NCBI RefSeq assembly: GCF_009905255.1
Contig: NZ_CP047602.1
Span: forward strand, 1,909,501-1,973,500
DNA from: Thermoanaerobacterium aotearoense
Lineage (GTDB): Bacteria; Bacillota; Thermoanaerobacteria; Thermoanaerobacterales; Thermoanaerobacteraceae
Length of the DNA stretch: 64,000 bases
Direction of reading: 5' to 3'
The first letter of the stretch is position 1; every line of letters begins with the position of its first letter. The notes under the pieces were generated by a model. It searched no databases. It was not told where the DNA came from and saw only the letters and a program-made list of their open reading frames with translations. The position numbers were made by a program, and so were the translations under genes. Positions 2,393 to 60,898 of the stretch are shown here, piece after piece.

Positions 2393-3733
2393 TTATTTTC
2401 TCGCATCTGCCCAAGCCTGTTTAGCATGTGAAATCACTTTATCCCAACTTAATGAACCATTCACATAAAGCTGTATATCAGCACCAAGGACATTTTGACC
2501 CCAATTGTTTGGATACCCCATGAATACCCATCCATATGTCTTGCCTTGACTTGCTGCCACAAAAAGCTGCATTCCAAGCGGATCAGATATGCTATTTGAA
2601 TTGTACCCAGTATATGCTGGGACAAACTTAAACTGCTGAGTAACTATCTGTTTTCCTTCATCTGATGTATACAACCAATCTAAGAAATCTTTAGCAGCTT
2701 TTTGAACATCCGCTGGTTTGTCGCTGTTAACTGCCCAATACATTGGGACACCTTCGGGATATGAGTCTTCTTTATATCCTGGAACAGGGTATGGCAACAT
2801 GCCAATATCATTTTGTGCAAAGTTCTTATCAAGTGACTCTAATGTAGGATATACCCAGTTACCTTGCTGAATCATCGCAACTTTTCCAGTTCCAAAAAGC
2901 TTTTCAACTTGCGTGCTGTAGTCAAGACTTGCTGTAGGTTGTACTGAATACTTATTCTGAAGATCAATCATCTGCTTCATTGCATCACCATATTTGAAGT
3001 CTACTGTCTTAGAATTAAATGCTTTCATGACATCTCCATCAAATTCTGGTGACAAGAATGCATTAGATAGATGGAGTCCAGTAACCCAAGTTTCTTTTGC
3101 CGGGAATGCGAAAACAGCTTCGATGCCTAACTCTTTCTTCTTTGAATCCAAAGTCTTTACAGCATTCACCAATGCATCAAAAGTTTTAATGCTGGATGGA
3201 TCAATACCTGCTTTGCTGAATATCTGTTTGTTGTAGATTAATCCATATCCCTCTAAATCAAATGGTAAACCATAAATTTTACCGTCCTGCGTCACACCAG
3301 TAAGAGTACCAGGAAGAGCGGCTTTTGCAGCTTTTGTATCTGACAGATCAGCCAATTTTGGCTTCCATGTAGCAACATCCTGTGGTCCACCTACATTGTA
3401 TATTGCTGGCTCTGAACCTGAATTGAATTTAGCTTTTAATGCAGCACCGTAATCTTGTCCTCCGCCTACAGTTTCTAAATTGATCTTAACATTAGGATTT
3501 TCTTTCATGTAAGTATTTATAGCATTTTGAAGAGCATCTTTTATTTCAACTTTAAATTGGAAAATGTCTAATGTTACAGGTTGGCTTGTAGTCTCAGTCT
3601 TATTTTGAGTTGAACTATTTTCTGAAGTTTTGCTTTGATCAGATTTTGTACTATTTCCGCATCCTGTTATAAGCACTGAAAATGCCATTAAAAGCACTAA
3701 AAGCAGCGCAATTACTTTTGAGGTTTTCCTCAT
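2393..3733 (-). CDS. Extracellular maltodextrin-type solute-binding lipoprotein
   Basis: Family 1 solute-binding protein (446 aa) that would capture starch oligosaccharides for the two downstream permeases. The N-terminus has a basic start, a hydrophobic run and a lipobox ITGC with Cys25, so it is a membrane-tethered lipoprotein. A Ser/Thr/Gln-rich linker (about residues 28-55) leads into the binding fold (VTLDIFQFKVEIKDALQNAI). The frame opens at 3772, but AGGAGG nine bases before the ATG at 3733 decides the start. It is the first gene of the importer operon and has its own promoter, operator and cre-like site upstream. Substrate specificity is inferred from context. Confidence 0.92.
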   Translation of the reverse strand: MRKTSKVIALLLVLLMAFSVLITGCGNSTKSDQSKTSENSSTQNKTETTSQPVTLDIFQFKVEIKDALQNAINTYMKENPNVKINLETVGGGQDYGAALKAKFNSGSEPAIYNVGGPQDVATWKPKLADLSDTKAAKAALPGTLTGVTQDGKIYGLPFDLEGYGLIYNKQIFSKAGIDPSSIKTFDALVNAVKTLDSKKKELGIEAVFAFPAKETWVTGLHLSNAFLSPEFDGDVMKAFNSKTVDFKYGDAMKQMIDLQNKYSVQPTASLDYSTQVEKLFGTGKVAMIQQGNWVYPTLESLDKNFAQNDIGMLPYPVPGYKEDSYPEGVPMYWAVNSDKPADVQKAAKDFLDWLYTSDEGKQIVTQQFKFVPAYTGYNSNSISDPLGMQLFVAASQGKTYGWVFMGYPNNWGQNVLGADIQLYVNGSLSWDKVISHAKQAWADARK

Positions 3734-3867
3734 AATCAAAATCCTCCTCTTCAATAAGCCAATTTTTTCCATTGACTTATGTGATTTTTAATTATAAAAT
3801 TTATGCAGTTCCATATTGATAAAAAATGTTTAATGAATCTTATCAATCTTTTATTTTTTCTTTTTAT

Positions 3868-3883
3868 CTACATATATAAGCGT
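3868..3883 (-). promoter_or_regulatory. cre-like catabolite repression site
   Basis: The minus strand reads ATGAAAACGCTTATA in the leader between the operator and the binding-protein gene. It matches the Firmicute CcpA cre consensus (TGWAANCGNTNWCA) except at the penultimate C. A downstream roadblock position fits glucose repression of the importer. The call is based on consensus only. Confidence 0.5.
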
Positions 3884-3948
3884 TTTCATGTAATTTAATT
3901 TAAAGTTAACAGACATCCCTCCTTATCATAGTATTTCATAGAATATTT

Positions 3949-3960
3949 GCAACCGGTTGC
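3949..3960. promoter_or_regulatory. LacI-type operator of the importer operon
   Basis: GCAACCGGTTGC is a perfect 12-bp palindrome with the central CG expected of LacI/GalR-family operators. It lies just downstream of the importer -10 box, over the predicted transcription start. Its core recurs at the promoter upstream of the amylopullulanase (11789-11800). No LacI-family regulator gene is adjacent. Confidence 0.72.
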
Positions 3961-3975
3961 GCTTTGCTTAATTAT

Positions 3976-4004
3976 ATTTTATATCCTTTGATTACAAAAG
4001 TCAA
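3976..4004 (-). promoter_or_regulatory. Promoter of the sugar importer operon
   Basis: Minus-strand TTGACT (3999-4004) and TAAAAT (3976-3981) are spaced by 17 bases, a near-consensus sigma-A promoter. The LacI-type palindrome begins 15 bases downstream of the -10 box. The 5' leader to the binding-protein start is long (over 200 bases) and contains the cre-like site and an unused-looking AAGGAGG. Confidence 0.75.
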
Positions 4005-4059
4005 TAGACTTATTTATTAAATCAAAAAAATTTAAAAAGGTTATCTTAAATTATATTTT

Positions 4060-4101
4060 GAGAAAGATATAAAAGTAAACAATTAAAATCATATCTTTCT
4101 C
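4060..4101 (-). terminator. Inverted repeat after the amylopullulanase gene
   Basis: GAGAAAGATAT (4060-4070) and ATATCTTTCTC (4091-4101) form an 11-bp stem with a 20-base loop just past the amylopullulanase stop. The tail downstream is AT-rich rather than a clean T-run, so this may be a weak terminator or an mRNA-stabilising hairpin. Confidence 0.45.
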
Positions 4102-4123
4102 ATCATAACTAATTTATACAATT

Positions 4124-7100
4124 TTATATGTTTCCGCTTTTTTCTAATGAGCCGTATATGATAGCTGCTGCTTCTGCTCTCGTGGCATTTCCTTTAGGTA
4201 CAAATACGTTATTTGGCTCACCATTTACTATTCCTAATTTCGCTGCATTTGCCACTACATTTCTTGCCCAATCGCTTATGGATTTGTCATCGCTAAATGT
4301 TGTCGCACCTATATTATCTTCTTTGTACTGTGTCAGCATCTCGTATGCCCTCATGGCTATTGCTGTCATTTCTTCTCTTGTTATGCTGTCATTGGGCCTT
4401 GCGTTCTTTCCGTCACCTTCGATTATCCCTGCTTTGTATGCTGCTTCTATTGCGTTTGCATACCAGTCTCCACTTTTTACATCGCTAAATTCTCCGCTGT
4501 ATGCTTCTTCTTTTATGTTTAGAAGCCTCAGTATCATTGCTGTGAATTCTGCTCTCGTCACTGTCTTGTTTGGTTCATACTGTGTATCTGTCATCCCTTC
4601 TACTATGTGCCTTGATGCTAATACTTCTATTACATCTTTCGCCCAATTGTCTTTTATGTCATTAAATGTCTTGTCGTACTCAAATGCTGCATATTGTGAG
4701 AAGTGCGTCGCATTGAATGTTATTGTTCCAGATGATGCGTCTACTTTACCACCTACGTACTCCCATTGATTTGTCGTTGGGTTGTAGTAGTAAACTGCTA
4801 CTTTTCTTGGATCGTTAGCTTTTGATATATTTAATGTTACCTCTACTGGTTTTGCCAATGCTACATTCCCACTGCTACCGTTTATTGTTATGTCTACTAC
4901 ATTAGAAAGCGGCACATAATTTGTCACATTAGGCTTTCCATTGTCTTTTATTGATACATTGACACCGTTTTGTATCTGGTCTTGGTTAAGTGCATCTTTC
5001 GTAAGTGCTATCGATGCATTGTCTGATTTTATGACGATGTCTTTGTCGTTGGCAGCACTTGAGTCTAAAATGTCCTTAGAAATCTGCACGACTTTTTGTT
5101 GTCCTTCACCTATTGTTGTTATGTCAAATACGATTTTCTTGTCTTTTGAATTTACTATAAGGTCTTTAGCTTTTCCCGCATCAAGCGTCAATGTGATAAT
5201 GTTGCCATTTTTATTGACTGTTCCAATTGTATTGTTCGTATTGCTGCTATTGCCGCTTGTAGTACTTGTTGTGCTTGTACCTGTACTTTCAGTGTTACCG
5301 CTCCCTGCGCTGCTTGAATTGCTTCCACTTGTGCCTGTATTATTATTTCCTATGCCGCTTCCACTATTATTCTCTTGTCTAATTACATCAATCTCAATAT
5401 CCTTTGTAAGTTCAGTTATTCTGCCTTGATCGTTACCATAAACACTACCATCATTTGGTTCAACATGTATCTTAATCGTATTTATCCCATAATTTAAAGA
5501 AACATCTTTAGTAAATACACCATTTTCATCTTGGACAAAACCATCACCGTTTATTATGACTTTAGCACCTTTATACGTGTTACCTTTGATTTCCATTGTA
5601 CTTATATTAGAATCAACTGTCATATTGCTACTTGGAGAATATATAAATATTGGAATATCCCTCCACCTATAAACCGTATCATTTATCGTCATTTCATTGT
5701 TGCCTTGATTTACAATCGTTACTTTTCTGTTTGATGCAAGCTCATTTCCGTATTCGTCTTTTTCAACCTTATCCCAACTACCTCTGGCATATTTGTATTC
5801 TATTTGTGTTCCTTCTTCAAGCGTAAGTGTAATGCTATAAGTATTATTATCTATTTTTGTCATCTGTTGTGCTGATGGATCCCAAGTAGCATTAGGAAAT
5901 GTTCCTGCCAAATTAACAGCATCTGGTGTATAATCAGGTACAGTTACATTAAAAATAACTTTTATAGGTACTACATCTGGTTTTATTGTAACCACATTAG
6001 ATTCTGTCCTATTAAATGATAGATCAACAGCAACAACTTTATAATTGTAAGTTACACCATTAATTACGCTCGTATCAATATAATTATAAACTTCATTTGA
6101 TACAGTAGCTATTTTATTAAATGTTCCACCATCGGACCTATAAATTTCATAATCGTATATACCGACATTGTCGGTAGATGGATTCCATGTAAGCGAGACT
6201 CTCGATGATTCTGTACCTGGCTGATTCAAATAAGGTGCAGTTGGCTTTATTAAATCGTCAGAAGGAACAACATAAAATGATAATGTGCTTGTGGTAATCC
6301 AGTCTTGCCCTTGATTGTCGGAAAATCTCATCAAATATTCCCATTGACCTATTTTATCAGGTGTAAAACTTGCTTTGTACTGATCATTATTTCCTATGTC
6401 TCCAACATATTGAGCATTTACCCAGGTAAAGCCACTATCATCTACGCCATATACGCTGTTATATACACTTCCATATACTGAATCATAAATAGTACCGCCA
6501 ACATATTTATATCCTAATTGCGCTATCATATTTGGACCTTGACCAGTGCTATTTGTAAGTCCATCTGCCCAAACTTCCGCATAAATATCTTCTGTTGGTT
6601 TATCAACACCTATTATATGATTATCAGATACTTGTGTAAGATTTCCTACCCACCCTATAGGATACGCTGGATATGCTACTGCATCATTACTAATTCCGCT
6701 TTCATTGCCTAATTCATCAATTGCTGATATTGCATATACATATTTTAATCCATTTGTAACATTGGCATCTTCAAACGTTGTTTCAGTTACATTTGATGCT
6801 ATTTTTTCATATAAACCACCTTCTACTGACGAACGATATATATTGTATCCTGTTGCACCATCAGATTGCGACCACGATAAATCAACTTTACCATTGCCGG
6901 AAGTAACAACAACATTTGAAGGAGCTTGTGGAGCAGTTAAATCTTGCCCATCATCTGATATAAGCATTACACCGCTCATAGCAGGTACATCTATAACTAT
7001 CTGTCCATTACTTATTGAATACGATACATTGTTGTTAATTAAATCTTTAAAAGTAACTCCATCTCTTAAAAACTTTGTAGTATCAATAGCTATTTGTTTA

Positions 7101-9721
7101 TCTGACTTGCTTCTATTTATTGCAACAATTGCAGCGCTATCAGGGTATGAAGTGCCAAAAGCATCTTTACCATTTATAATTCTCCTACCAATGGCATAAA
7201 CATCATTTTGTGCATATAAAGTCTCCAAATCACCAGTTTTTAATACTTGATTGTTATTTCTTATGCTTGATATATTTTTAAAGAAATCTTGTAATGTCGT
7301 ATCTTCATTTCCCCACGGGAATGTTCTTCTATCATCTGGATCTTTACCGCCAGAAACTCCTGCTTCATCGCCATAGTAAATATCCGCCATACCAGGATAT
7401 CCCATCTGCAAAATTGTTGCTAATTTTAGCTTTTGTTCTGCCAGTTGTTTAGCAGCGTCTGAGTTTTCGTTAGGATCTGCAGAGTTATATCCAAACACTG
7501 TTAATATTCTCATTGTATCATGAGAACCAAGCAAATTCATCGTTGAATAAAAAGCAGGCAACGGATATCTTTCATATATGCTCATCAGCCTTTGGTCAAG
7601 TTTTGCTGCATCTATAGGATTGTGTTGACCATTTCCATCATCGAAAGATTGCCCAATCAAAAAATCTATGATGTCATTTCTAAACTGATAATTCATAACT
7701 GAATTAAAAGAATCGCCAAGTAAATCAAGGGACGCATCTCCCCAATTTTCTGCTATCATTGGCGCTTCAAATTTTACGGTATTAATAGCATTCCTAAAAT
7801 GTGTCCAGAAATCATGTGCAACTTCATTTTCCACATCCAAACGCCAACCATCAGCACCATCATTTAAATTCCCATCTGAATTTAGCCAATACTTGGAAAT
7901 GGCATTTTCATTGTTTATTATAAAGTTGGCCCAACTTGTAACGTTATATTCACTACCATTTAATGATTTTATAACAGGCAAACTGTCATAACCCCACCAG
8001 CACTCGTAAGTACCGTCGGAATTTATAGTATACCAATCACCATACGGCGATAAAGACTGATTTCCTTCTTTCCAAGCTTGATATGCACCTAATCCCGGAT
8101 ATTTGCCGTATCTATTAAAATATATACTATCATCACTGGTGTGATTGAATACACCATCAAGAATTATTTTTATACCTTTAGCATGTGCATCACTCATTAA
8201 CTTTTCAAAATCTTGTGTAGTACCAAACATTTCATCAATCTTTGTATAATCAGCAGTATCATACTTATGATTTGAAGGTGATTCAAATATTGGATTTAAG
8301 TAAATTACAGATACTCCAAGTCCTTTCAGATAATCAAGTTTATCATCGATTCCTTTTAAATCACCACCAAAAAAGTCGTTTGACCAAATACCATCGCCAG
8401 TATAACCTGGAGTTCCAGCATTATTAGGGTTATCCGGCAGATCATTCCAATTATTATGGAACTCTATTGGATCATTGCCACGGCTTAATGTCTTTGCATG
8501 ATCATTAGATGTATCGCCATTATAAAACCTGTCAGGGAAAATTTGATACATGACAGCGCCTTTCATCCAATCAGGCGTATCAAAATTTTTATCATATACA
8601 GTTAATTCAAAATCCTTATTTACAGTATCTGTTGCTTTTCCAACACCACCAAGTTGATCATCATTGTCGCCATAATAAGCTGTTTTAGTTCCATCTTTTA
8701 ATATAAAGTAATACCAAATTCTCGTTGGATGATCAAAACTCAACTTTATTTCCCAATATTCATAATTACCATCAGGACTTTCACCTATTCTTGTCATAGG
8801 TAATTCTGTCCTAATCTTATTTATATCGTCCCAATACGATATTCTGGCAGACTCGAGATCATGATTTTTTGCTTGAATTCTTAATGTGACAGTTTGCCCT
8901 ACTTTTATAGCGCCAAAAGGATTCCTAAAAAACGAATCATGTGTATCATGCTTTAGGTCATCATAATATATGTTGTTATCTAAACCAGTGAGGATGGGAC
9001 TATAATTGGTCCAAATATTATGAGTATTTGCATCATAATAAAACGTTATATCGGCATCGTTTGTGACATTTATTTGTATATTTGAACCATCTTTCACACC
9101 ATTTGCACCATAATTTTCATCCCATGTATTTCCTAATGTCACCTTGTATTGATAGTCACCCTTTGGGACATGCGCAGTGTATGAATAAACGTTGTCAAAA
9201 TTATCATCTGTCATTATTGCTGTCGATGTTCCAGGATCCCAATCATTACCTGCTCCAATAGCTGATTGAATTGTTCCAACTAATCTGGGCAATTTGTCAT
9301 TAGCTATTGGAGTATATTTAGTAGAATCAGTTACAGATTGTGTATTATAGTCAAACCAAAATGTAACATATGAATCATTTGCTAAGTTCAGCGTTAGATT
9401 TCCTTGAGATGGGACACCTCCACCATCCCATGAATGGTTTAATGCAACTTTATACTGATAGCTACCAGCTTTTAGTTGAGTTGGCGTAGTAAATTCATAC
9501 AGTCCATTTCCCATATACTGCATTATGGTAATGTTACTATCAATATTCCAGTTAGAATCACCCAGTTGATCTTGAAATTCCCCTACGATATTTGCTACAA
9601 CGCTTGCATTATCAGCAGCATGTACACTGTGAAGTGGTATTGAAGAAAATACCGCTGTCAATACTAATAAAAGCGACATATTAAAGCTTATGAATCTGTT
9701 GGTAAAAAGCTTTTTATTCAT
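4124..9721 (-). CDS. apu: S-layer-anchored amylopullulanase
   Basis: Giant secreted GH13 enzyme (1865 aa) that cleaves both alpha-1,4 and alpha-1,6 bonds of starch and pullulan. Order of parts: signal peptide 1-35 (ending SVHA); two related beta-domains at about 40-130 and 145-240; an N-terminal starch-binding-like domain at 245-375; the catalytic barrel at about 385-920; fibronectin III repeats near 930-1020 and 1160-1248; a starch-binding-like domain at 1253-1360; a Ser/Gly/Thr/Asn-rich linker at 1452-1498; and three SLH repeats at about 1685-1865 for S-layer attachment. Visible GH13 motifs are DGVFNH (522-527), GWRLDV with nucleophile Asp629, acid/base Glu658 in MIAENWG, and His734-Asp735. 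Subtracting the 35-residue signal gives 594/623/700, the triad I recall for the T. saccharolyticum enzyme. A GAGGGAGG site precedes the ATG. An IS110 element separates the gene from its apparent promoter. Confidence 0.96.
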
Positions 9722-15822: not shown

Positions 15823-18219
15823 CTAATTAGCTGATCTGAACCTCCTCAGCCTTAAGGCGTTTGATACAACTGATACTGAGCTAAATGCCATTGCACCCCC
15901 TGCAATAGCTGGATTCAAAAGACCTGCTGCAGCAAATGGTATTCCTATCGTGTTGTAAATAAAAGCCCAAAACAGATTCTGGTAGATATTTCTCATAGTA
16001 GCTCTGCTTAATTTTATGGCTGTCACCAAACTCATGAGACTGCCACTTATAAGTGTAATGTCTGATGTTTCTATAGCCACGTCTGTCCCTGTGCCTATAG
16101 CAATACCTAAATCTGACTGTGCTAATGCTGGAGCGTCATTTATCCCATCTCCAACCATTGCAACTATTTTACCCTGTTTTTGTAATTTTATGACTTCTTC
16201 CGCCTTTTTTTCTGGCAAAACTTCTGCTAACACGTGTGCAATACCTACTTGCTTTGCAATGGCCTCAGCAGTTTTTGCGTTGTCACCAGTTATCATGTAT
16301 ACATCTATGTTTAAAGCTTTTAATTCTTGTATAGCCTTTGCTGAATCTTCCTTAGGCACATCCGCAACCGCTATTACACCCAAAACTTTGCCTTCAGATG
16401 ATAAAATCATAACGGTTTTGCCTTCGCTCTCAAGATCTTCTAAATAATGTTTTATGTCAGATATATCTACACTTTGCCTATCCATCAACCTTCTATTGCC
16501 AATATAATATTCTTTTTCGTTAATTATAGCACAAATACCGTAGCCTGGTATAGTCTCAAATTTGCTCGGATCTGGCAATTTTTCGCATTTTTCCTTTGAT
16601 TTATTCACAATTGCTTTACCAAGCGGATGCTCAGAATTTTTTTCAGCTATTCCAGCAATATACAGCAAATCATCCTCTTTCAATTGGCTGAACGAAATGA
16701 CATCAGTGACTACTGGTTCTCCTTTTGTAATAGTACCAGTTTTGTCTAATACAATAGCATTAATCTCTTTTGCTTTTTGCAAATATTCCCCACCTTTTAT
16801 AAGTATGCCATTTTCTGCTCCTTTGCCTGTACCTACCATAACAGAGGTTGGTGTTGCAAGGCCTAATGCACAAGGACATGCAATTACAAGCACAGATACA
16901 GCACTTATTACACCTGCATTAAGATTTCCTAAAACAAGATACCATATCAAAAATGTGATTACTGCTATTCCTATAACCACAGGTACAAAAACTCCTGACA
17001 CTTTATCGGCAATCTCTTGGATAGGCGCTTTTGAGCCCTGTGCATCCTCAACCATCTTTATTATCTGTGATAAGACAGTATCTTTCCCAACCTTAGTCGC
17101 TTTAAACTTAAATGTGCCCGTTTTATTTATTGTAGCACCTATTACTTCGTCATTGACATTTTTATCAACAGGAATAGACTCTCCTGTTATCATAGATTCA
17201 TCTATAGCAGAACTTCCTTCTACAATTACACCGTCTACAGGTATTTTTTCACCCGGCCTTACTATAACTACATCTCCGACTTTTACTTCTTCAATAGGTA
17301 TGTCTATTTCTTCTCCGTTTCTTATGACTCTTGCAGTTTTCGCCTGAAGTCCCATAAGTTTTTTTATTGCTTCAGATGTTTTGCCTTTCGCTATAGCTTC
17401 AAGCATTTTCCCCAATGTAATAAGAGTGATTACAACAGCCGACGCTTCAAAATATAAATAATTGTGTACCTCTGACATAGGCTTAGTAAAAACATTGTAC
17501 AAGCTATAGAAGTATGCAGCAGACGTGCCAAGAGCCACCAATGTATCCATGTTAGCTGACATATTTTTTAAATTATGCCAAGCACCTTTGTAATATCTAT
17601 ATCCAATAATAAATTGAACTGGCGTTGCTAAAAGTATTTGAAACCACGGAACCTCCAAAATTCCTGCAGGCAATTTAAAAACTTTTAATATCATAGCCAG
17701 AAGAAGTGGGAAAGTCAAAATCGAAGATATAATCACCATGGTTTTTGTCCTTTTTATCTCGGCATCTCTCTCATCCTTTTCATAGTCTAATGCATTATCT
17801 TTTTTTTCTTTCGCATCATAGCCGATGTCTCTTATAGCTTTTGCCATCTGTTCTACACTTATTGCGTCTGAATTATATTCTACAGATGCCTCCTCTGTAG
17901 CAAAATTAACGTTGGCTTTATATACACCGGGCAATTTATTCAAAGTCTTTTCTATTTTAGTAGCGCATGAAGCACATGACATACCAATCAATACAAGATC
18001 TGCTTTGTCCCTTACTACACCATACCCTAAATCTTCAATTTTTTTCGTCATATCATCAATATTAACTTTAGTCGGGTCGTATACAACTGTTGCCTTTTCC
18101 ACAGCCAAGTTGACATTGGCTTCATCAATTCCTTCTAAATTTTTAAGACCTTTTTCTATGTGAGCGGCACAAGATGCACAAGTCATGCCAGTAATTTTTA
18201 AAGTAGCTTTTTCAGGCAT
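15823..18219 (-). CDS. copA: Copper-exporting P1B-type ATPase
   Basis: 798-aa Cu(I) efflux pump. Two N-terminal heavy-metal domains carry GMTCASC (Cys14, Cys17) and GMSCASC (about residue 80). The membrane metal site CPC lies near residue 446 ([13 protein letters not shown]). The phosphorylation motif DKTGT begins near Asp491, followed by the SEHPLG motif and [15 protein letters not shown] nine bases before the ATG at 18219 fixes the start; the ATG at 18228 touches the ribosome binding site and is unlikely. It follows a thioredoxin-like gene in one operon under a CsoR-like operator. Confidence 0.96.
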
Positions 18220-18237
18220 ATAAATCATCTCCTTAAA

Positions 18238-48228: not shown

Positions 48229-48864
48229 TCACTCTTTATTTTTACTAAGTTCACTTATTTCTTTTTCTAATGCATCCATTCTCGCTTTTAGATCCTGTGC
48301 TTCTTTTAAGGCTGCATCCCTTTGATTCTGAAGCTCTTCTATGATGCTTTTTGCGATCTCATCGCTATCACTTCTCATTTTCGACAACTGCTCGTCTTTG
48401 TACTTTACAGCATCTTTTGCTATGCCATCGATGTTTTGTTTTGCTGCATCTGCTAAATTCTTCATCTTTTCAGATACTGTCATCGCACCAGAGACAGCAC
48501 CAACAGCTACTGGCTTCAAAGCCCTTTTTATATTTGGCCCTATAGATGCAAGTATAAATGCAGCGCTTATTCCCAGTAAAAAGCCTTTTGTAGTATTTGT
48601 ACCCATAAAATTGCTTAGCATTTTAAATCTCATCGACACATTGTCTTGCCATGTAAGCTCATTGTTGCGAGTCTTACCAAAAAAATCATAGGCTCTCCTA
48701 AAGCTATTTTGATGTGATTTTTCATCAAACAGCACTTTTTTAAAGATGTTTCTCACATAAGGATTGCGAATCTTGTCTAAATCAGCCATGTACTGTTCAA
48801 TCGCCAGAGCCTCACTATTTATGCCATCTGATAAAACTTTCATTAAGCTTTCCTTATTTTCCAT
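48229..48864 (-). CDS. EncFtn-like ferroxidase domain fused to membrane helix and coiled coil
   Basis: 211-aa protein of unusual layout. Residues 1-65 form two helices with Glu18, Glu48 and His51 (INSEALAIEQY and FDEKSHQNSF). The spacing of 30 then 3 residues equals that of Glu32/Glu62/His65 which I recall for encapsulated ferritin (EncFtn). Residues about 92-112 form a hydrophobic, glycine-containing membrane segment (GFLLGISAAFILASIG) followed by an amphipathic module like those at 54821-55180 and 57643-57879. Residues about 170-208 form a coiled coil. GGAAGGAG precedes the ATG. I infer an iron-oxidising membrane protein; rubrerythrin-like folds are the alternative. Confidence 0.7.
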   Translation of the reverse strand: MENKESLMKVLSDGINSEALAIEQYMADLDKIRNPYVRNIFKKVLFDEKSHQNSFRRAYDFFGKTRNNELTWQDNVSMRFKMLSNFMGTNTTKGFLLGISAAFILASIGPNIKRALKPVAVGAVSGAMTVSEKMKNLADAAKQNIDGIAKDAVKYKDEQLSKMRSDSDEIAKSIIEELQNQRDAALKEAQDLKARMDALEKEISELSKNKE

Positions 48865-54786: not shown

Positions 54787-54817
54787 TAAAAAAAGCCCAA
54801 CGTTTAGTTGGGTTTTT
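54787..54817 (-). terminator. Terminator of the P1B-ATPase operon
   Basis: CCCAAC and GTTGGG flank a five-base loop. On the minus strand CTTTTTTT follows; on the plus strand TTTTTT also follows, so it can work in both directions. It separates the ATPase operon from the gal promoter. Confidence 0.88.
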
Positions 54818-54820
54818 TAA

Positions 54821-55180
54821 TCATTCAGCAGTTTTTAATCTGCTTAACTCACTTTCTAACATTTCTATCCTGCTTTTAAGCTCATTTACTTCTCTTATTG
54901 CCTTCTCTCTTTCTTCTTCTAAGTTGTCTATCTCGCTTTGATACAAGTTTTCATCTGCTTTGTCATTTCTTTCATTGTCGCTAAACATTTTCGCTATTCT
55001 GTCTTTGCCTTTATTGATTGCCGAAGATGCCTTATCAGCCATATCATAAGTGCTTTTTACGCCATTTATTAGAACTGGCTTTACTTTCTCTTTTGCTTTT
55101 GGAAATAAAATATAACTTAATGCAGCAACACCAATTCCCCAGAAAAAGCTTCTACTTCCTAAAGTTTTAACGATACCCAT
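54821..55180 (-). CDS. Small membrane-module/coiled-coil protein of the ATPase operon
   Basis: 119-aa protein. The hydrophobic helix FFWGIGVAALSYILFPKAK (about 12-30) is followed by an amphipathic stretch KPVLINGVKSTYDMADKASS, and then a coiled coil (about 78-117). The first two parts resemble those at 57643-57879 and in the EncFtn-like protein: an aromatic-x-GIG/GVG helix, Pro-Lys-rich turn and (A)DK motif. It is last in a four-gene operon before a terminator, with GGGAGG upstream. It resembles YtxH/DUF5132-like proteins; function unknown. Confidence 0.8.
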   Translation of the reverse strand: MGIVKTLGSRSFFWGIGVAALSYILFPKAKEKVKPVLINGVKSTYDMADKASSAINKGKDRIAKMFSDNERNDKADENLYQSEIDNLEEEREKAIREVNELKSRIEMLESELSRLKTAE

Positions 55181-55245
55181 TGAAGTTTCCTCCCTTCATA
55201 GGTTCTTCTATTATTTTATCCCGAAAAAAATATATTATTAAATCG

Positions 55246-55473
55246 CTATTTTCCAAAAATGAGTGCTCTTGCAATTGATTTGTACAATTCTTTAGCCTGA
55301 TGTTTTTCGCTCATCTTTACCGCATATTGTAAAAAATCGTTAATTGTTAACTGCCACAATTTTACAATTTCATTTTTAGTTGATTTGTCTTTTGAATACT
55401 CTGTAAATGATATGTCAACCGTCTGTCGTAAAACTTTCGAAGCTTCTTCGAATTTCTTTTTCATTTCTTCCAT
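55246..55473 (-). CDS. Small helical protein overlapping the P1B-ATPase gene
   Basis: 75-aa, all-helical, soluble-looking protein (MEEMKKKFEEASKVLRQTVD ... KELYKSIARALIFGK) of no family I know. AGGAGG precedes its ATG at 55473, inside the ATPase gene, giving a 59-base overlap in another frame. It is therefore translationally linked to the ATPase, and could be a subunit or scaffold. Confidence 0.72.
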   Translation of the reverse strand: MEEMKKKFEEASKVLRQTVDISFTEYSKDKSTKNEIVKLWQLTINDFLQYAVKMSEKHQAKELYKSIARALIFGK

Positions 55474-57610
55474 CAGAAATAATCCTCCTTGATGAATATT
55501 TATAGACTTTAAGCGAATTGGCCAACACGATCATCTGATTAATGCTGTGCAGCATTGCTGCCATAAATGGATTCACTTTGCCAAAAAGCGTCATGATGTA
55601 TTCTACATAGCTCATCATCGATGCTATAACATGATTTTGATTTATCACTTCCTTTGAATACCTTGATAGCTCTATCAAATACGGTATTTTTAAAGGGTTT
55701 TCGTCGATTACAGCCACATCGAGGGCTTTTAATATCTTCTTACTTATGGGCCTTCCCAAAATGATTCCAACATCAGCGCTTCTCATCGCCTTCACATCAT
55801 TTAGTCCATCGCCGACCATTACGACAGTTCTGCCATCATCCTTTTGCCTTTTTACAAAATTCTTCTTCTCATCAGGCGATACACTGCTAAACGCATTTAC
55901 TATACCTAATTCATAAGCCACTCTATCTGTGGGTTCTTTATCATCACCTGATAAAATATAGATACCATCATCGTTAAAGCCTAATGATCGTGTAAATTCT
56001 ACTGCAGCTTTGCTTTTCTTCTTAAGCACGTCTTTCATTCCGATGACGCCAATAGCATTCCCATCAACAGCAACGTATATCACACCTCTATTTAGGTTTT
56101 TTAAAACATTGCTGAGATCCTCCACATCATGTAGATCAATGTTGTTTATCTCCATAAACCTTTCGTTGCCAACGTGCAATTGTTTCCCATCTACATAAGC
56201 AAAAGCACCCATGCTTTTGACTTCTTTGCCATGAGAAAAATCTTCTACTTTTATTCCCATATCATCTGCTTTTTTAATTATAGACAATGCTACAGGATGT
56301 ATGACACCAGATTCTGCAGACGCAGCTATCTTTAATATATGATTTTTGTCAGTATTTGATGACGGCAAAATTTCGCTTACAATAGGTCTGCCTTCCGTAA
56401 GAGTTCCCGTTTTGTCAAAAATCAGCACATCAGCTTTTGCCATATTTTCGATTGCAGATGAACTTTTTATCAATATACCTCTCTTCGCCGCATTTTTGAC
56501 AGCTATGCCGTAGACACCAGTAGAACCATGTGCAAAAGTACATGGACATAAAACAAGCATTGATGATATTCCCTTCAATATATCATTTGTATAAAGCGCC
56601 ACAAGCCCTGTAATGATAAAAGACAGCGGTATAATTTTGTTGATATATACATCAGCAGTATTTGTAATATACTTCTCCTTTGATTCTAATTCCACAATCT
56701 TGTACAGATCTTCTATGCTTTCATTTGCCTCAATATCAGTTATTCTGCCCTTTACTTCTCCATCGACGATCAAAGATGATTCTACGATTTTATCGCCTTT
56801 TTGCTTTTTGACGTACTTTACTTTTCCTCGTATATACTTTTCATCTACAATTGCACTGCCTTCAACTACTTCGCATTCATACGGCGCCACATCACCTTTT
56901 TTAAGCGAAATCACATCGCCTTCATTAAGCTCCTCTACAGGCACTTCTATTTCTCTTCCTTCTAATGCCATCCACACTTTACCTGGCTTTAATTTAAGGA
57001 AGCTTTCAAGTGCTTTTTTATTATAGTGTATGTTTAACGAGTGAATAAGGACACTTAAATTGACGAGAAAAATTACCACAAGCCCTAATATGCTTTCTCT
57101 TATAAAAAGCATTATAGTTGTAGCAACTGTTATCATCAAATCGCCATTTATTTTGTGTTCCTTAAACAGTGTATTTATGCCACTTCTAAATATTGGGTAT
57201 CCAGCCACAATCGACACAATTGATGACATGCTTAATAACCCATAATGGCCGCTTAACGGCGATTTACCAGCAAATATGCGCTTTAATGCGGTGTAAATCG
57301 TAGCAGCCAATGGCATAAATACCATCACAAATTGAGTCTTAAGCGGTAAATCTTCTGGTTCATACGGCTTTACATTATCATCTACATTATCTTTGAAAAT
57401 AGCATTTATGATTTCTCTTTTTATTTCTTCTATTGTCTTGCCTTCGTATTTGACAAGCACTTTTCCAGTAACACTGCTGGCACTTATATATTTGATCCCT
57501 TTAGATCTTTTTAAATAATGATTAATCTTTTTCTCAATGGATTTGTCTTTGTAAAGTACATCAAAGCTTAATCGTGCTAATCCAGGCAGCGAAAAAATCT
57601 CTCTTATCAT
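55415..57610 (-). CDS. P1B-type ATPase with degenerate metal-binding N-terminus
   Basis: 731-aa heavy-metal ATPase. Residues about 1-70 have the heavy-metal-domain-like pattern but no CxxC (KGIKYISASSVTGKVLVKYE). About eight membrane helices follow. The membrane metal site CPC is at 355-357 (VLCPCTFAHGSTG). The phosphorylated Asp399 lies in FDKTGTLTEG, with GVIHPVALS and GDGLNDVKAM present. GGAGG seven bases before the ATG at 57610 decides the start. The gene lies in an operon with single-helix proteins. The ion is unknown: CPC alone is seen in copper pumps, but the absent CxxC and the GSTGVYG sequence after CPC differ from CopA. A ferrosome-type (P1B-6) role is one hypothesis. Confidence 0.85.
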   Translation of the reverse strand: MIREIFSLPGLARLSFDVLYKDKSIEKKINHYLKRSKGIKYISASSVTGKVLVKYEGKTIEEIKREIINAIFKDNVDDNVKPYEPEDLPLKTQFVMVFMPLAATIYTALKRIFAGKSPLSGHYGLLSMSSIVSIVAGYPIFRSGINTLFKEHKINGDLMITVATTIMLFIRESILGLVVIFLVNLSVLIHSLNIHYNKKALESFLKLKPGKVWMALEGREIEVPVEELNEGDVISLKKGDVAPYECEVVEGSAIVDEKYIRGKVKYVKKQKGDKIVESSLIVDGEVKGRITDIEANESIEDLYKIVELESKEKYITNTADVYINKIIPLSFIITGLVALYTNDILKGISSMLVLCPCTFAHGSTGVYGIAVKNAAKRGILIKSSSAIENMAKADVLIFDKTGTLTEGRPIVSEILPSSNTDKNHILKIAASAESGVIHPVALSIIKKADDMGIKVEDFSHGKEVKSMGAFAYVDGKQLHVGNERFMEINNIDLHDVEDLSNVLKNLNRGVIYVAVDGNAIGVIGMKDVLKKKSKAAVEFTRSLGFNDDGIYILSGDDKEPTDRVAYELGIVNAFSSVSPDEKKNFVKRQKDDGRTVVMVGDGLNDVKAMRSADVGIILGRPISKKILKALDVAVIDENPLKIPYLIELSRYSKEVINQNHVIASMMSYVEYIMTLFGKVNPFMAAMLHSINQMIVLANSLKVYKYSSRRIISDGRNEKEIRRSFESFTTDG

Positions 57611-57642
57611 GTCAAATCCTCCAAATACACGCATAATCCCTC

Positions 57643-57879
57643 TTATGAGGGATTATCTGCTGTTTCAGGCTGTGTCTTTATTTTTGATTGAGTATGTTGA
57701 TACTGGGCTTCGGCTATTATGTCTTCTACTTCTTCTTTCACGTTTATAGCCAATTCTTTGCCTTTATCGGCAAGAATCATGGCAGTGCCTACAAGCCCTA
57801 CCGCTAATTTCTTTGCCGGCTTCGCCAATAAAAGTGCTATTCCCAATGCTCCTACGCCAATCCAAAATTCTTTGCTCAT
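57643..57879 (-). CDS. Small one-helix membrane protein, first gene of ATPase operon
   Basis: 78-aa protein: helix EFWIGVGALGIALLLAKPAK, basic turn, second hydrophobic/amphipathic part LAVGLVGTAMILADKGKELA, and an acidic/Gln-rich tail. It resembles DUF5132-like proteins and shares its module with 54821-55180 and the EncFtn-like protein. GGAGG seven bases before the ATG at 57879 fixes the start; codons upstream of this are not needed. The ATPase gene starts 32 bases beyond its stop. Likely membrane scaffold; not established. Confidence 0.75.
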   Translation of the reverse strand: MSKEFWIGVGALGIALLLAKPAKKLAVGLVGTAMILADKGKELAINVKEEVEDIIAEAQYQHTQSKIKTQPETADNPS

Positions 57880-58036
57880 CTTAAAAACCTCCTGTCTATT
57901 TTTATTTATTTTAACCGCCATTTACAAATAATATTAATGAAAGTCATCGAAAGCTGTCATTCATAATTTTTCCTTCTGTGAAATAAAAAATTTTGGACAA
58001 AATATTTTTATTATAAGACGTTCTGGAGGTATGAAG

Positions 58037-60898
58037 ATGGAACTCATAAGAAAATATACATCATATACGAAGCGAATCAGGTTCTCCGTAAACGGCCTAT
58101 ACAGAAATGAATTATTAGCGAAAAGGCTGGAAAAAAATCTATCCCTCAAAAGTGGAATATTAAGCGTAACAGCAAACCCAATGACAGGAAATATAATCGT
58201 TGCTTTTGACAGCAGTTTAAAAGTCGAAGACATAAAGAAAGAAATATACAAGATAAAATTCAATATAAGAGATGGTAAAGATATTTTCCCTATGAAACAA
58301 CAAGCTCAATACCCTTGGCACATCATGACAAAGAGGCAAATAGAAAAAGTCCTAAACTCAGATATTGACAATGGGCTATCAACAGTTGAAGCTAAAAAAA
58401 GACTGAGTACATACGGTTTGAACCAACTGATAAGCGGAAATAAACCATCCTTCTTTAAAATGATGTTAAGTCAAGTTAACAACTACCTATTTAAGATACT
58501 TCTTTTTGCAGGCGGTATTTCTTTTTTGATTGGAGATGTAGCTGATTCTATCGTGATAATATCGATTGTCGTAATAGAATCAAGCCTTGGAGTGCTTCAA
58601 GAGTACAATGCGGAAAAATCTTTAGAATCGCTGCACAAGTTGACATCGCCTCGATCATCTGTTTTAAGAGACGGTAAAATATCATTGTTAAGCTCATCAG
58701 AACTTGTACCAGGAGATGTAGTGATCGTAAATCCAGGAGACATTGTTCCTGCGGATGGTCGCATCGTTGAATGTAAAAATCTTGAGACTGATGAAAGCTG
58801 TTTGACAGGTGAGTCCCATCCATCGTCAAAGCACGATTTGGTGATACTAAAAGATGATATCCCATTAGCTGAACGAAAAAACATGGCTTACATGGGAACA
58901 AGCATCACCAAAGGATACGGCAAGCTTATCATAGTCTCAACCGGAATGTCAACAGAAATAGGCAAAATTGCAAAAATGCTAAATGAAGAAAGAAATGTTT
59001 TATCGCCACTTAACAAAAGCCTTGAAGTTTTAGGAAAAAACATAACAGTAGCAATCATAATTATCAGCTTCAGCATTTTCTTAAGCGGAATAATAAGAGG
59101 CAAATCCTTCTCGCAGATGCTTGGAATAGGCATAAGCCTTGCTATAGGAGCCATACCAGAAGGCTTATCTACAATCGTGACGATAGCTTTAGCTTACGGT
59201 GTACAGCGAATGGCAAAAAGAAATGCTATAGTGAGAAAACTTAATTCTGTAGAAACATTGGGAGTAGCCAATGTAATATGTACCGATAAAACTGGTACAC
59301 TTACAAAAAACGAAATGACAGTAAAAGAAATACGGACTCTCGATAAAATATGGATCATATCAGGAATTGGGTATTCGCCATTAGGTAGTTTTTATCATGA
59401 CAATGTCAAGATAAATCCAAAAGATGATAAAGACCTATATTCAATCTTACAATACGGTGCTATGTGCAGCAATTCAAAATTGATAAAAAAAGAAAATGAT
59501 TGGACAGTATCTGGTGATCCAACAGAAGGTGCTATAATCGTTGCTGCAGCAAAAGCTGGCATTGAGAATAAACAATACGAGAGAATTGATGAGATACCTT
59601 TCGACTCGTCAAACAAATTCATGACTGTCGTAGTCGATACTGCTTCATACAAGTTGGCCATATCAAAAGGAGCTCCTGATGTGATATTAAACAAATGCAG
59701 CTACTTTTTAAGGTCAGGCAAAGCTATAAAATTAGGAAAAATAAACAAAAACAAGATCATCAGGCAAAACGATGAAATGTCTAACAAAGCATTAAGAGTC
59801 TTAGCTGTTTCTTACAAGATTTTAAACGATGAAGACAATAACGTTGACAGTGATTTCATATTTGCTGGTCTTATAGGCATGGAAGATCCGCCAAAGGATG
59901 AAGTCAGTCAGACTATTGAAGAATGCCTTAGAAGTGGGATTAACGTTGTCATGATAACAGGAGACCAAAAAAACACTGCTGTGTCAATAGGAAAGAGAAT
60001 CGGACTTTTAAAAGGCAAAAAAGCAATTTCAGGCCAAGAGCTTGATAAAATGGATGACGATGAGTTAATAAACCTTATAGATGACGTAAACATATTTTAC
60101 AGAACTTCTCCGCATCACAAGCTAAAGATCGTCAGAGCTTTGAGAAAAAAAGGGTACATCGTTGCCATGACAGGAGATGGCATCAACGATGCACCAGCAG
60201 TAAAAGAGGCAAATATCGGCATTGCAATGGGTAAAGGCGGAACAGACGTTACAAGAAATGCCTCCGATATAACACTGGCTGATGACAATTTCACTACCAT
60301 TGTCATGGCTATAAAAGAAGGTCGCGGCATCAACGAAAACATAAAAAAATTTTTAAGATACGTTTTGTCAGGAAATGTTGGCGAAATAATAGCTTTAGCC
60401 ATGGCATCCATGACAGGCATGGAAATGCCGCTTACATCAAGCCAGATTTTAAGCATAAATCTTGTCACTGAAGGAATACCTGCTCTGGCATTAGGAGTAG
60501 AACCATCATCATTAAAACTTAAAAAGAATGAAAATGCACAATTGCTTGACAGCAAACTATACAACTACATACTCAAAAGAGGCTCTTTAATAGGATTTAC
60601 GACGCTATTTGCCTTTAAATACGGTGAAGCACTTAGAAATCCAGTCATCGCCAAAACCATGGCATACTCAAACTTAGTCATGGCACAGATGTTCAATGTA
60701 TTTGACGCAAGACGTGCAGAAATGCCTACACCAATATCACAAAATAAATTGTTGGTGCCATCTGTAGCCATATCTATCGCAACGCTATTGGCAACCATAT
60801 ACGTAAACCCTATTGCAAATATATTTGGAAATGCAAAGCTTAGCCTTATGGATTGGCTCATCGTTCTTTTAAGCTCCGGCATCATCAGCAGAATTTAA
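58037..60898 (+). CDS. P2-type cation ATPase with heavy-metal-domain-like extension
   Basis: 953-aa pump related to Ca2+/Mn2+ ATPases. An N-terminal domain of about 80 residues (LEKNLSLKSGILSVTANPM, TGNIIVAFDSS) resembles a heavy-metal domain without CxxC and matches that of the ATPase on the other side. A cation ATPase N-domain starts with HIMTKRQIEKVLNSD. PEGL (374-377) in helix 4 and NLVTEGIPALALG in helix 6 are P2A-like ion-site motifs. The phosphorylated Asp417 is in CTDKTGTLTKN and [10 protein letters not shown] completes the hinge. GGAGG seven bases before the ATG at 58037 sets the start. It is divergent from the operon at 54821-57879. Confidence 0.9.
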   Translation: MELIRKYTSYTKRIRFSVNGLYRNELLAKRLEKNLSLKSGILSVTANPMTGNIIVAFDSSLKVEDIKKEIYKIKFNIRDGKDIFPMKQQAQYPWHIMTKRQIEKVLNSDIDNGLSTVEAKKRLSTYGLNQLISGNKPSFFKMMLSQVNNYLFKILLFAGGISFLIGDVADSIVIISIVVIESSLGVLQEYNAEKSLESLHKLTSPRSSVLRDGKISLLSSSELVPGDVVIVNPGDIVPADGRIVECKNLETDESCLTGESHPSSKHDLVILKDDIPLAERKNMAYMGTSITKGYGKLIIVSTGMSTEIGKIAKMLNEERNVLSPLNKSLEVLGKNITVAIIIISFSIFLSGIIRGKSFSQMLGIGISLAIGAIPEGLSTIVTIALAYGVQRMAKRNAIVRKLNSVETLGVANVICTDKTGTLTKNEMTVKEIRTLDKIWIISGIGYSPLGSFYHDNVKINPKDDKDLYSILQYGAMCSNSKLIKKENDWTVSGDPTEGAIIVAAAKAGIENKQYERIDEIPFDSSNKFMTVVVDTASYKLAISKGAPDVILNKCSYFLRSGKAIKLGKINKNKIIRQNDEMSNKALRVLAVSYKILNDEDNNVDSDFIFAGLIGMEDPPKDEVSQTIEECLRSGINVVMITGDQKNTAVSIGKRIGLLKGKKAISGQELDKMDDDELINLIDDVNIFYRTSPHHKLKIVRALRKKGYIVAMTGDGINDAPAVKEANIGIAMGKGGTDVTRNASDITLADDNFTTIVMAIKEGRGINENIKKFLRYVLSGNVGEIIALAMASMTGMEMPLTSSQILSINLVTEGIPALALGVEPSSLKLKKNENAQLLDSKLYNYILKRGSLIGFTTLFAFKYGEALRNPVIAKTMAYSNLVMAQMFNVFDARRAEMPTPISQNKLLVPSVAISIATLLATIYVNPIANIFGNAKLSLMDWLIVLLSSGIISRI

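Follow-up and report, generated by a model that had tools for sequence, protein, structure and literature searches.

In the 64,000-nucleotide stretch of Thermoanaerobacterium aotearoense DNA analyzed here (contig NZ_CP047602.1, positions 1,909,501 to 1,973,500; hereafter the window), we found two divergently oriented genes for P-type ATPases, a group of small putative membrane and helical proteins, and a ferritin-like protein. We consider it fairly likely that these genes encode a PacL-like membrane platform that gathers the two pumps together with a tethered iron-binding/ferroxidase domain. The gene set appears to be related to the metal-efflux platforms of tuberculosis bacteria, with a likely role in iron handling, and not to copy the known iron-storage organelle system. 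Its parts are listed below in window coordinates; the names PacN, PacC, HEL, and FtnPac were coined in the present analysis.

48229-48864, minus strand: FtnPac, an EncFtn-type domain followed by a hydrophobic segment (residues 94-110) and an amphipathic/coiled-coil tail
54794-54819: terminator-like hairpin (GCCCAAC..GTTGGG plus T/A runs) directly 3' of PacC, read in the sequence and shared by congeners
54821-55180, minus strand: PacC, scaffold-like, with a hydrophobic segment (residues 11-27) and a coiled coil (open reading frame, module hidden Markov model, and homologs)
55246-55473, minus strand: HEL, a predicted three-helix protein of 75 amino acids from an undescribed family (open reading frame and AlphaFold2)
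55415-57610, minus strand: P1B-type ATPase with an N-terminal HMA_2-like domain (TIGR01525, motifs, and trees)
57643-57885, minus strand: PacN, a small PacL-like protein, start possibly at 57921
57886-58030: divergent promoter region between PacN and P2, its sequence kept among congeners
58031-60898, plus strand: P2-type ATPase (SPCA/PMR1-like) with an N-terminal HMA_2-like domain (SPCA1 match and motifs)

Transcription on the minus strand runs from PacN through the P1B ATPase and HEL to PacC, with HEL overlapping the ATPase gene by 59 bp and P2 diverging from this group. An original prediction, made from the sequence alone, had described exactly this operon, and all of its genes lie where they had been placed. 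It had also proposed similar heavy-metal-like N-domains in both pumps, which we confirmed: the two domains match Pfam HMA_2 at 28.8 and 26.9 bits (cut-off 30; P1B reached 33 bits in a second search) and are homologous to each other (E = 7e-11). The EncFtn-like protein that it had noted 6 kb away is FtnPac. The module that it had seen shared between this protein and two small proteins is real: PacC is homologous to FtnPac residues 89-206, coiled coil included (E = 2e-11); the likeness between PacC and PacN is weak (E = 0.025). Each search sampled a few hundred genomes, and the matches of the window's own proteins to HMA_2, DUF6110, DUF5132, and EncFtn are mostly under the curated cut-offs, their weight coming via homologs only. 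In the PacN/P2 intergenic region no strong operator palindrome was seen, and no Fur-box model was applied.

Conservation and gene neighborhoods

Judged from gene content, FtnPac, PacC, PacN, P1B, and P2 are one conserved system. In a representative of another family (L187), P2 and the divergent genes PacN-P1B-PacC-FtnPac lie within about 7.5 kb, and the FtnPac there is 38% identical to that of the window over its full length. In a third family (L188), the gene order is P1B-FtnPac-scaffold. G405, which belongs to the same genus as the L187 genome, still has PacC at the site but has neither the pumps nor FtnPac. Among the nine genomes of the genus, which were searched for P1B, P2, PacN, and FtnPac, P1B and FtnPac are complete in five, except that the P1B gene of G003 carries one in-frame stop. 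The remaining four (G001, G004, G005, and G007) have only scraps of P1B at the galT/G1P-dehydrogenase-like site, next to an intact HEL and PacC, and lack FtnPac (the galT side of the site was not seen in G004). Pumps and FtnPac are thus missing together, with PacC kept, in two genera. The co-occurrence of FtnPac and pumps within the genus (5/5 vs. 0/4) is weak alone because it may reflect one event, and the five congeners, being one clade, do not count as independent evidence; the co-occurrence became convincing only with L187, L188, and G405, so that the earlier expectation that these genes belong together was upheld.

A survey of HMA_2 ATPases in 299 genomes, with the seed loci left out, gave 12 loci with a recognizable non-P1B-6 HMA_2 ATPase. 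A scaffold protein adjoins the pump in all 12, and HEL does so in 11. All parts of the gene set are under purifying selection, with ratios of nonsynonymous to synonymous substitution rates (dN/dS) of 0.07 for FtnPac, 0.05-0.09 for HEL, 0.13-0.14 for PacC, 0.10 for P1B, and 0.11 for P2. The gene set itself, its conservation, its homologies, its motif losses, and this selection are direct observations. One could still suppose that the genes are unrelated neighbors, sharing the look of membrane proteins and no function. The gal genes do separate the FtnPac of the window from the pumps, and HEL and PacC occur alone elsewhere. However, the adjacency of FtnPac and P1B in two other families, the repeated joint absence, and the 12/12 and 11/12 neighborhoods make this supposition very improbable.

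In four congeneric loci at the galT-G1P-dehydrogenase site (L049, L052, L053, and L055), short P1B remnants stand beside intact, constrained HEL and PacC. G003 (L051) has a P2 gene broken over several frames (3279-6145) and one in-frame TGA in P1B (6563-8755), which may be an assembly error or early decay.

FtnPac and its ferritin-like domain

The N-terminal domain of FtnPac is recognizable from its sequence as an EncFtn-type two-helix ferritin-like domain. Residues 1-65 match Rubrerythrin (Pfam) above its cut-off and EncB_fam (NCBIfam) at 1.7e-5, under its cut-off. The ferroxidase ligands of Rru-EncFtn are Glu32, Tyr39, Glu62, and His65 (PMC5012862, PMC11202242). FtnPac has E18, Y25, E48, and H51 at exactly this spacing, and all four are unchanged in homologs from three families. 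The FtnPac homologs of L187 and L188 match EncB_fam at 7e-8 and 3e-8 and also match TIGR04535 (encapsulin-associated ferritin), all under curated cut-offs. A phmmer search of FtnPac against the PDB returned weak matches to ferritins and designed diiron proteins and nothing more. From the ligand spacing, the domain is expected to bind Fe(II) and probably to oxidize it. Encapsulin (PF04454) was not found in the genome, in which control searches gave matches. The FtnPac gene is flanked by genes for a DUF624 protein and a sugar-binding protein.

Small proteins

PacN contains an AE-rich segment (EDIIAEA), and a profile of its family is related to DUF6110 (93%, E = 3.5e-7). DUF6110 proteins are themselves related to PacL, are encoded with P1B6 pumps, and have been proposed to build membrane platforms too (PMC9374683).

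HEL was modeled by AlphaFold2 as three helices (predicted local distance difference test score 93), and a comparison of this fold with the PDB gave no match. The HEL search model, built from pump-linked copies, matches in 27 of 398 genomes. As a strict marker of the pumps HEL was rejected, since the genomes newly found by this model mostly lack an adjacent pump. The pump-less copies of HEL and PacC are constrained (dN/dS 0.09 and 0.14, respectively). The persistence of HEL-PacC under constraint without these pumps suggests that the pair has another role as well.

In two related clusters, the scaffold proteins (L060, 9546-10625; L074, 8435-9343) have long low-complexity tails that are Asn/Tyr/Gly-rich or made of PGQMGTPGGYGT repeats. 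These tails suggest clustering or condensate formation.

The P1B ATPase and its missing TGE motif

The P1B ATPase matches the heavy-metal P1B model TIGR01525 at 375 bits, above the cut-off. It retains CPC in M4 (LCPCTF, in orthologs too), DKTGTLT, SGD, and GDGLND. A loss that escaped the original prediction is that of the A-domain TGE, which is replaced by RGK in this protein and by the same residues in three further orthologs. In the A domain, TGE serves as an intrinsic phosphatase motif (PMC10654040). The gene is not simply decaying, because its constraint equals that of P2. The last transmembrane helix has HS in the window P1B and HN in the pumps of L060a, L063, L064, L074, L188, L189, and L093.

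By its motifs and its position in the trees, the window P1B falls among the CPC/HN "P1B6-like" ATPases, the type assigned to Mycobacterium tuberculosis CtpC. A first tree grouped it with other TGE-less P1Bs; we dropped this grouping as possible long-branch attraction and rebuilt the tree without those sequences. In the rebuilt tree, related clusters contribute the CPC/HN P1Bs with which it groups (97/96); this group is joined (86/86) by a CtpC-like pump of Mycobacteriaceae (L093), whose gene lies beside that of a true PacL (DUF1490, E = 4e-40). The L093 locus came from a contig scan by DKTGTLT and GDGxND patterns, which gave mostly generic P1B pumps. A second tree, with L187-L189 added, supports the CPC/HN group at 99/98. 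P1B-6 pumps form a separate clade (98/95) without the window P1B; they were recognized by [FY]SC in M4, the HN of the last helix, and neighboring DUF6110 genes, and the P1B-6 label of the clade is based on the DUF6110 linkage and HN. Pumps for Cu, Zn, and Cd form their own clade (100/99), so a classic Cu/Zn exporter was ruled out. The original prediction had named clear clustering with known copper/zinc exporters as a finding that would refute it, and the trees do not show such clustering. It had also raised a kinship with the P1B-6 ATPase of ferrosome (fez) loci; this idea was not supported, and FezB or another P1B-6 pump was rejected as an identity for the window P1B because of CPC in place of [FY]SC and its position outside that clade.

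These placements bear on the possibility of a ferrosome-like, lipid-bounded iron store, in which the pumps load Fe(II), the module proteins shape the membrane, and FtnPac oxidizes iron inside. The relation of the PacN family to DUF6110, a neighbor of P1B-6 pumps and, in L081, of an iron-dependent repressor, would fit such a store, and ferrosomes too have a redox partner, the cytochrome FezC. The end result, efflux or storage, depends on the topology of FtnPac, which the charges flanking its hydrophobic segment leave undecided. An N-out/C-in orientation would place the ferritin domain in the lumen, but a charged 90-residue N-domain that lacks a signal peptide would hardly be expected to pass through the membrane. 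Considering also that the window P1B is not of the P1B-6 type and that no iron repressor or FezC-like gene was found among the scanned cluster proteins, with no repressor gene adjacent, we regard this store as unlikely.

Among loci of the same phylum, L081 (7571-10430) has consecutive genes for an iron-dependent repressor-like protein, a DUF6110 protein, and a P1B-6 ATPase, an order like that of fezXAB. Loci L083-L091 have P1B-6 ATPases with [FY]SC and pairs of small HMA_2-domain proteins of about 110 and 215 amino acids. The window itself has a second P1B ATPase (15823-18228), which is classic CopA-like with CPC and TGES.

The P2 ATPase and its degenerate P1B partners

Among solved structures, P2 is closest to human SPCA1 (563 bits, aligned over residues 103-946). 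Its TGES, DKTGTLT, and PEGL motifs are intact and M5 has NxxE; M6 reads NLVTEG, with the Asn retained and the ion-ligand Asp changed to Glu. As its family suggests, P2 may export from the cytosol a divalent cation (Ca, Mn, or Fe-like).

Across related clusters, a catalytically weakened P1B beside an intact P2 is, by the motifs retained and lost, a recurring feature. TGE-less P1Bs occur in such clusters (L060b and L068b), and so do degenerate P1Bs, either as halves of P2 fusions or as separate proteins. The DKTG-less P1B-like proteins of L066 and L067 have an intact P2 ATPase in the same cluster, and the separate degenerate P1B of L067 is 46% identical to the fused half of L069. Among the P1Bs linked to FtnPac, that of L188 retains CPC, HN, and TGES, and that of L187 retains TGE and lacks CPC.

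A degenerate P1B half and a complete P2 form single proteins of 1,528-1,636 amino acids in L062 (10258-15168), L063 (9938-14524), L064 (10235-14854), L068 (2980-7695), and L069 (7140-11786). Fusions of this kind in relatives, at about 1,540-1,640 amino acids, resemble mycobacterial CtpH/CtpI in length. Stand-alone P1B-like proteins without DKTG occur in L065 (8243-10144), L066 (10627-12399), L067 (6880-8721), and L078 (8123-9904). In the literature, CtpI/CtpH are listed as an uncharacterized isolated branch (PMC10654040).

With P2 as the sole ATPase of the set that keeps all catalytic motifs, and SPCA/PMR1-like, the whole might instead be a Ca2+/Mn2+ pump complex, with the TGE-less P1B as a regulatory pseudo-pump and the ferritin-like domain countering peroxide or binding Mn/Zn without iron storage. 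The degenerate P1B halves fused to P2 (L062, L063, L064, L068, and L069) or standing alone (L066 and L067) are consistent with this idea. However, the FtnPac partner in L188 is a P1B in which CPC, HN, and TGES are all retained, which ties FtnPac to the P1B side, and the EncFtn ligand residues are those of a diiron ferroxidase. We therefore hold a Ca2+/Mn2+ complex to be rather improbable.

Proposed mechanism and significance

From the features above we infer complex formation, iron as a substrate, the direction of transport, ferroxidase activity, and any compartment. In the platform that we favor, PacN, PacC, and the C-terminal half of FtnPac would sit in the membrane and associate by their helices and coiled coils, as the PacL precedent suggests. 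These scaffolds may hold both ATPases by their HMA_2-like N-domains, as PacLs hold CtpC, CtpG, and CtpV. FtnPac would put its diiron domain beside the pumps, where it would bind and probably oxidize Fe(II), standing in the place and role of the metal-binding tail of PacL1. P2 would export a divalent cation from the cytosol. Because the TGE phosphatase loop is lost, the P1B of this genus is less likely to cycle as a normal pump than to serve as a scaffold or as a partner that senses metal. The most likely role of the whole would be protection of the cytosol when Fe(II), or another divalent metal like it, is in excess.

Several findings weigh against such a platform. PacN matches DUF5132 at 21.8 bits (cut-off 25) and DUF6110 at 17 bits (cut-off 26), both under the cut-offs, and the PacN-family profile matches PacL itself weakly (E = 0.024). 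Neither PacN nor PacC has the C-terminal metal-binding tail of the PacL type. HEL-PacC pairs are also kept where pumps are missing, both in congeners and in a sister genus. In the window, FtnPac lies within a sugar-transport operon, 6 kb off the pump genes. Finally, the second tree puts the CtpC-like row just outside the clade of the window P1B.

If the platform is real, it would link ferritin chemistry directly to a platform of membrane pumps, without a protein shell. The gene set offers an experimentally accessible test of pump organization by PacL-like proteins outside Actinobacteria. The recurrence of degenerate P1B partners also raises a hypothesis that can be tested, namely that a pseudo-pump is built into long P2 ATPases of the CtpH/CtpI type. 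A bolder and doubtful possibility is a second, independent bacterial membrane iron store built on a PacL-like scaffold: P-type ATPases, including one TGE-less pseudo-pump, would deliver iron, and an EncFtn ferroxidase tethered at or in a membrane compartment would mineralize it.

Comparison with known systems

In the open-licence PMC literature, we found no description of this two-pump set or of a fusion between a ferritin-like domain and a PacL-like module. With EncFtn/EncB proteins, FtnPac shares the E32/Y39/E62/H65 ligand set at native spacing and the sub-threshold EncB_fam and TIGR04535 matches, but where those carry a tail for targeting to encapsulin, it has a membrane scaffold module, and its genome has no encapsulin. 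P2 resembles SPCA/PMR1-type P2A ATPases in full-length homology and catalytic motifs. It differs from these and from CtpH/CtpI in its N-terminal HMA_2 domain, in the M6 change from Asp to Glu, and in having its P1B partner as a separate gene. Loci with DUF6110 and a P1B-6 ATPase, Fez/ferrosome operons among them, likewise combine a small membrane protein, profile-related to the PacN family, with a P1B ATPase, but their pumps carry [FY]SC and form a separate clade, and neither HEL nor a P2 ATPase was seen in the P1B-6 loci that were fetched.

The platforms of M. tuberculosis ("effluxosomes") combine DUF1490 proteins with CtpC, CtpG, and CtpV (PMC9374683, PMC13043812), and several pumps share one PacL platform, according to a 2026 follow-up (PMC13043812). 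CtpC was termed "P1B6-like" for its combination of CPC and HN (Boudehen et al., PMC9374683). Similarly, the present system pairs a P1B6-like ATPase that bears CPC with a small membrane protein of a single helix, and it has an HMA-type N-domain as a putative docking site, an AE-rich segment, and several PacL-like proteins and pumps per genome. Unlike PacL/Ctp, it adds a P2 ATPase, HEL, the coiled-coil PacC, and a scaffold-fused EncFtn domain; it has no tail of the HDHDH type, such as the VGHDHEH of the L093 PacL, and its P1B lacks TGE and has HS, not HN. On these comparisons, PacL/Ctp efflux platforms come nearest among known systems and are a closer precedent than ferrosomes.

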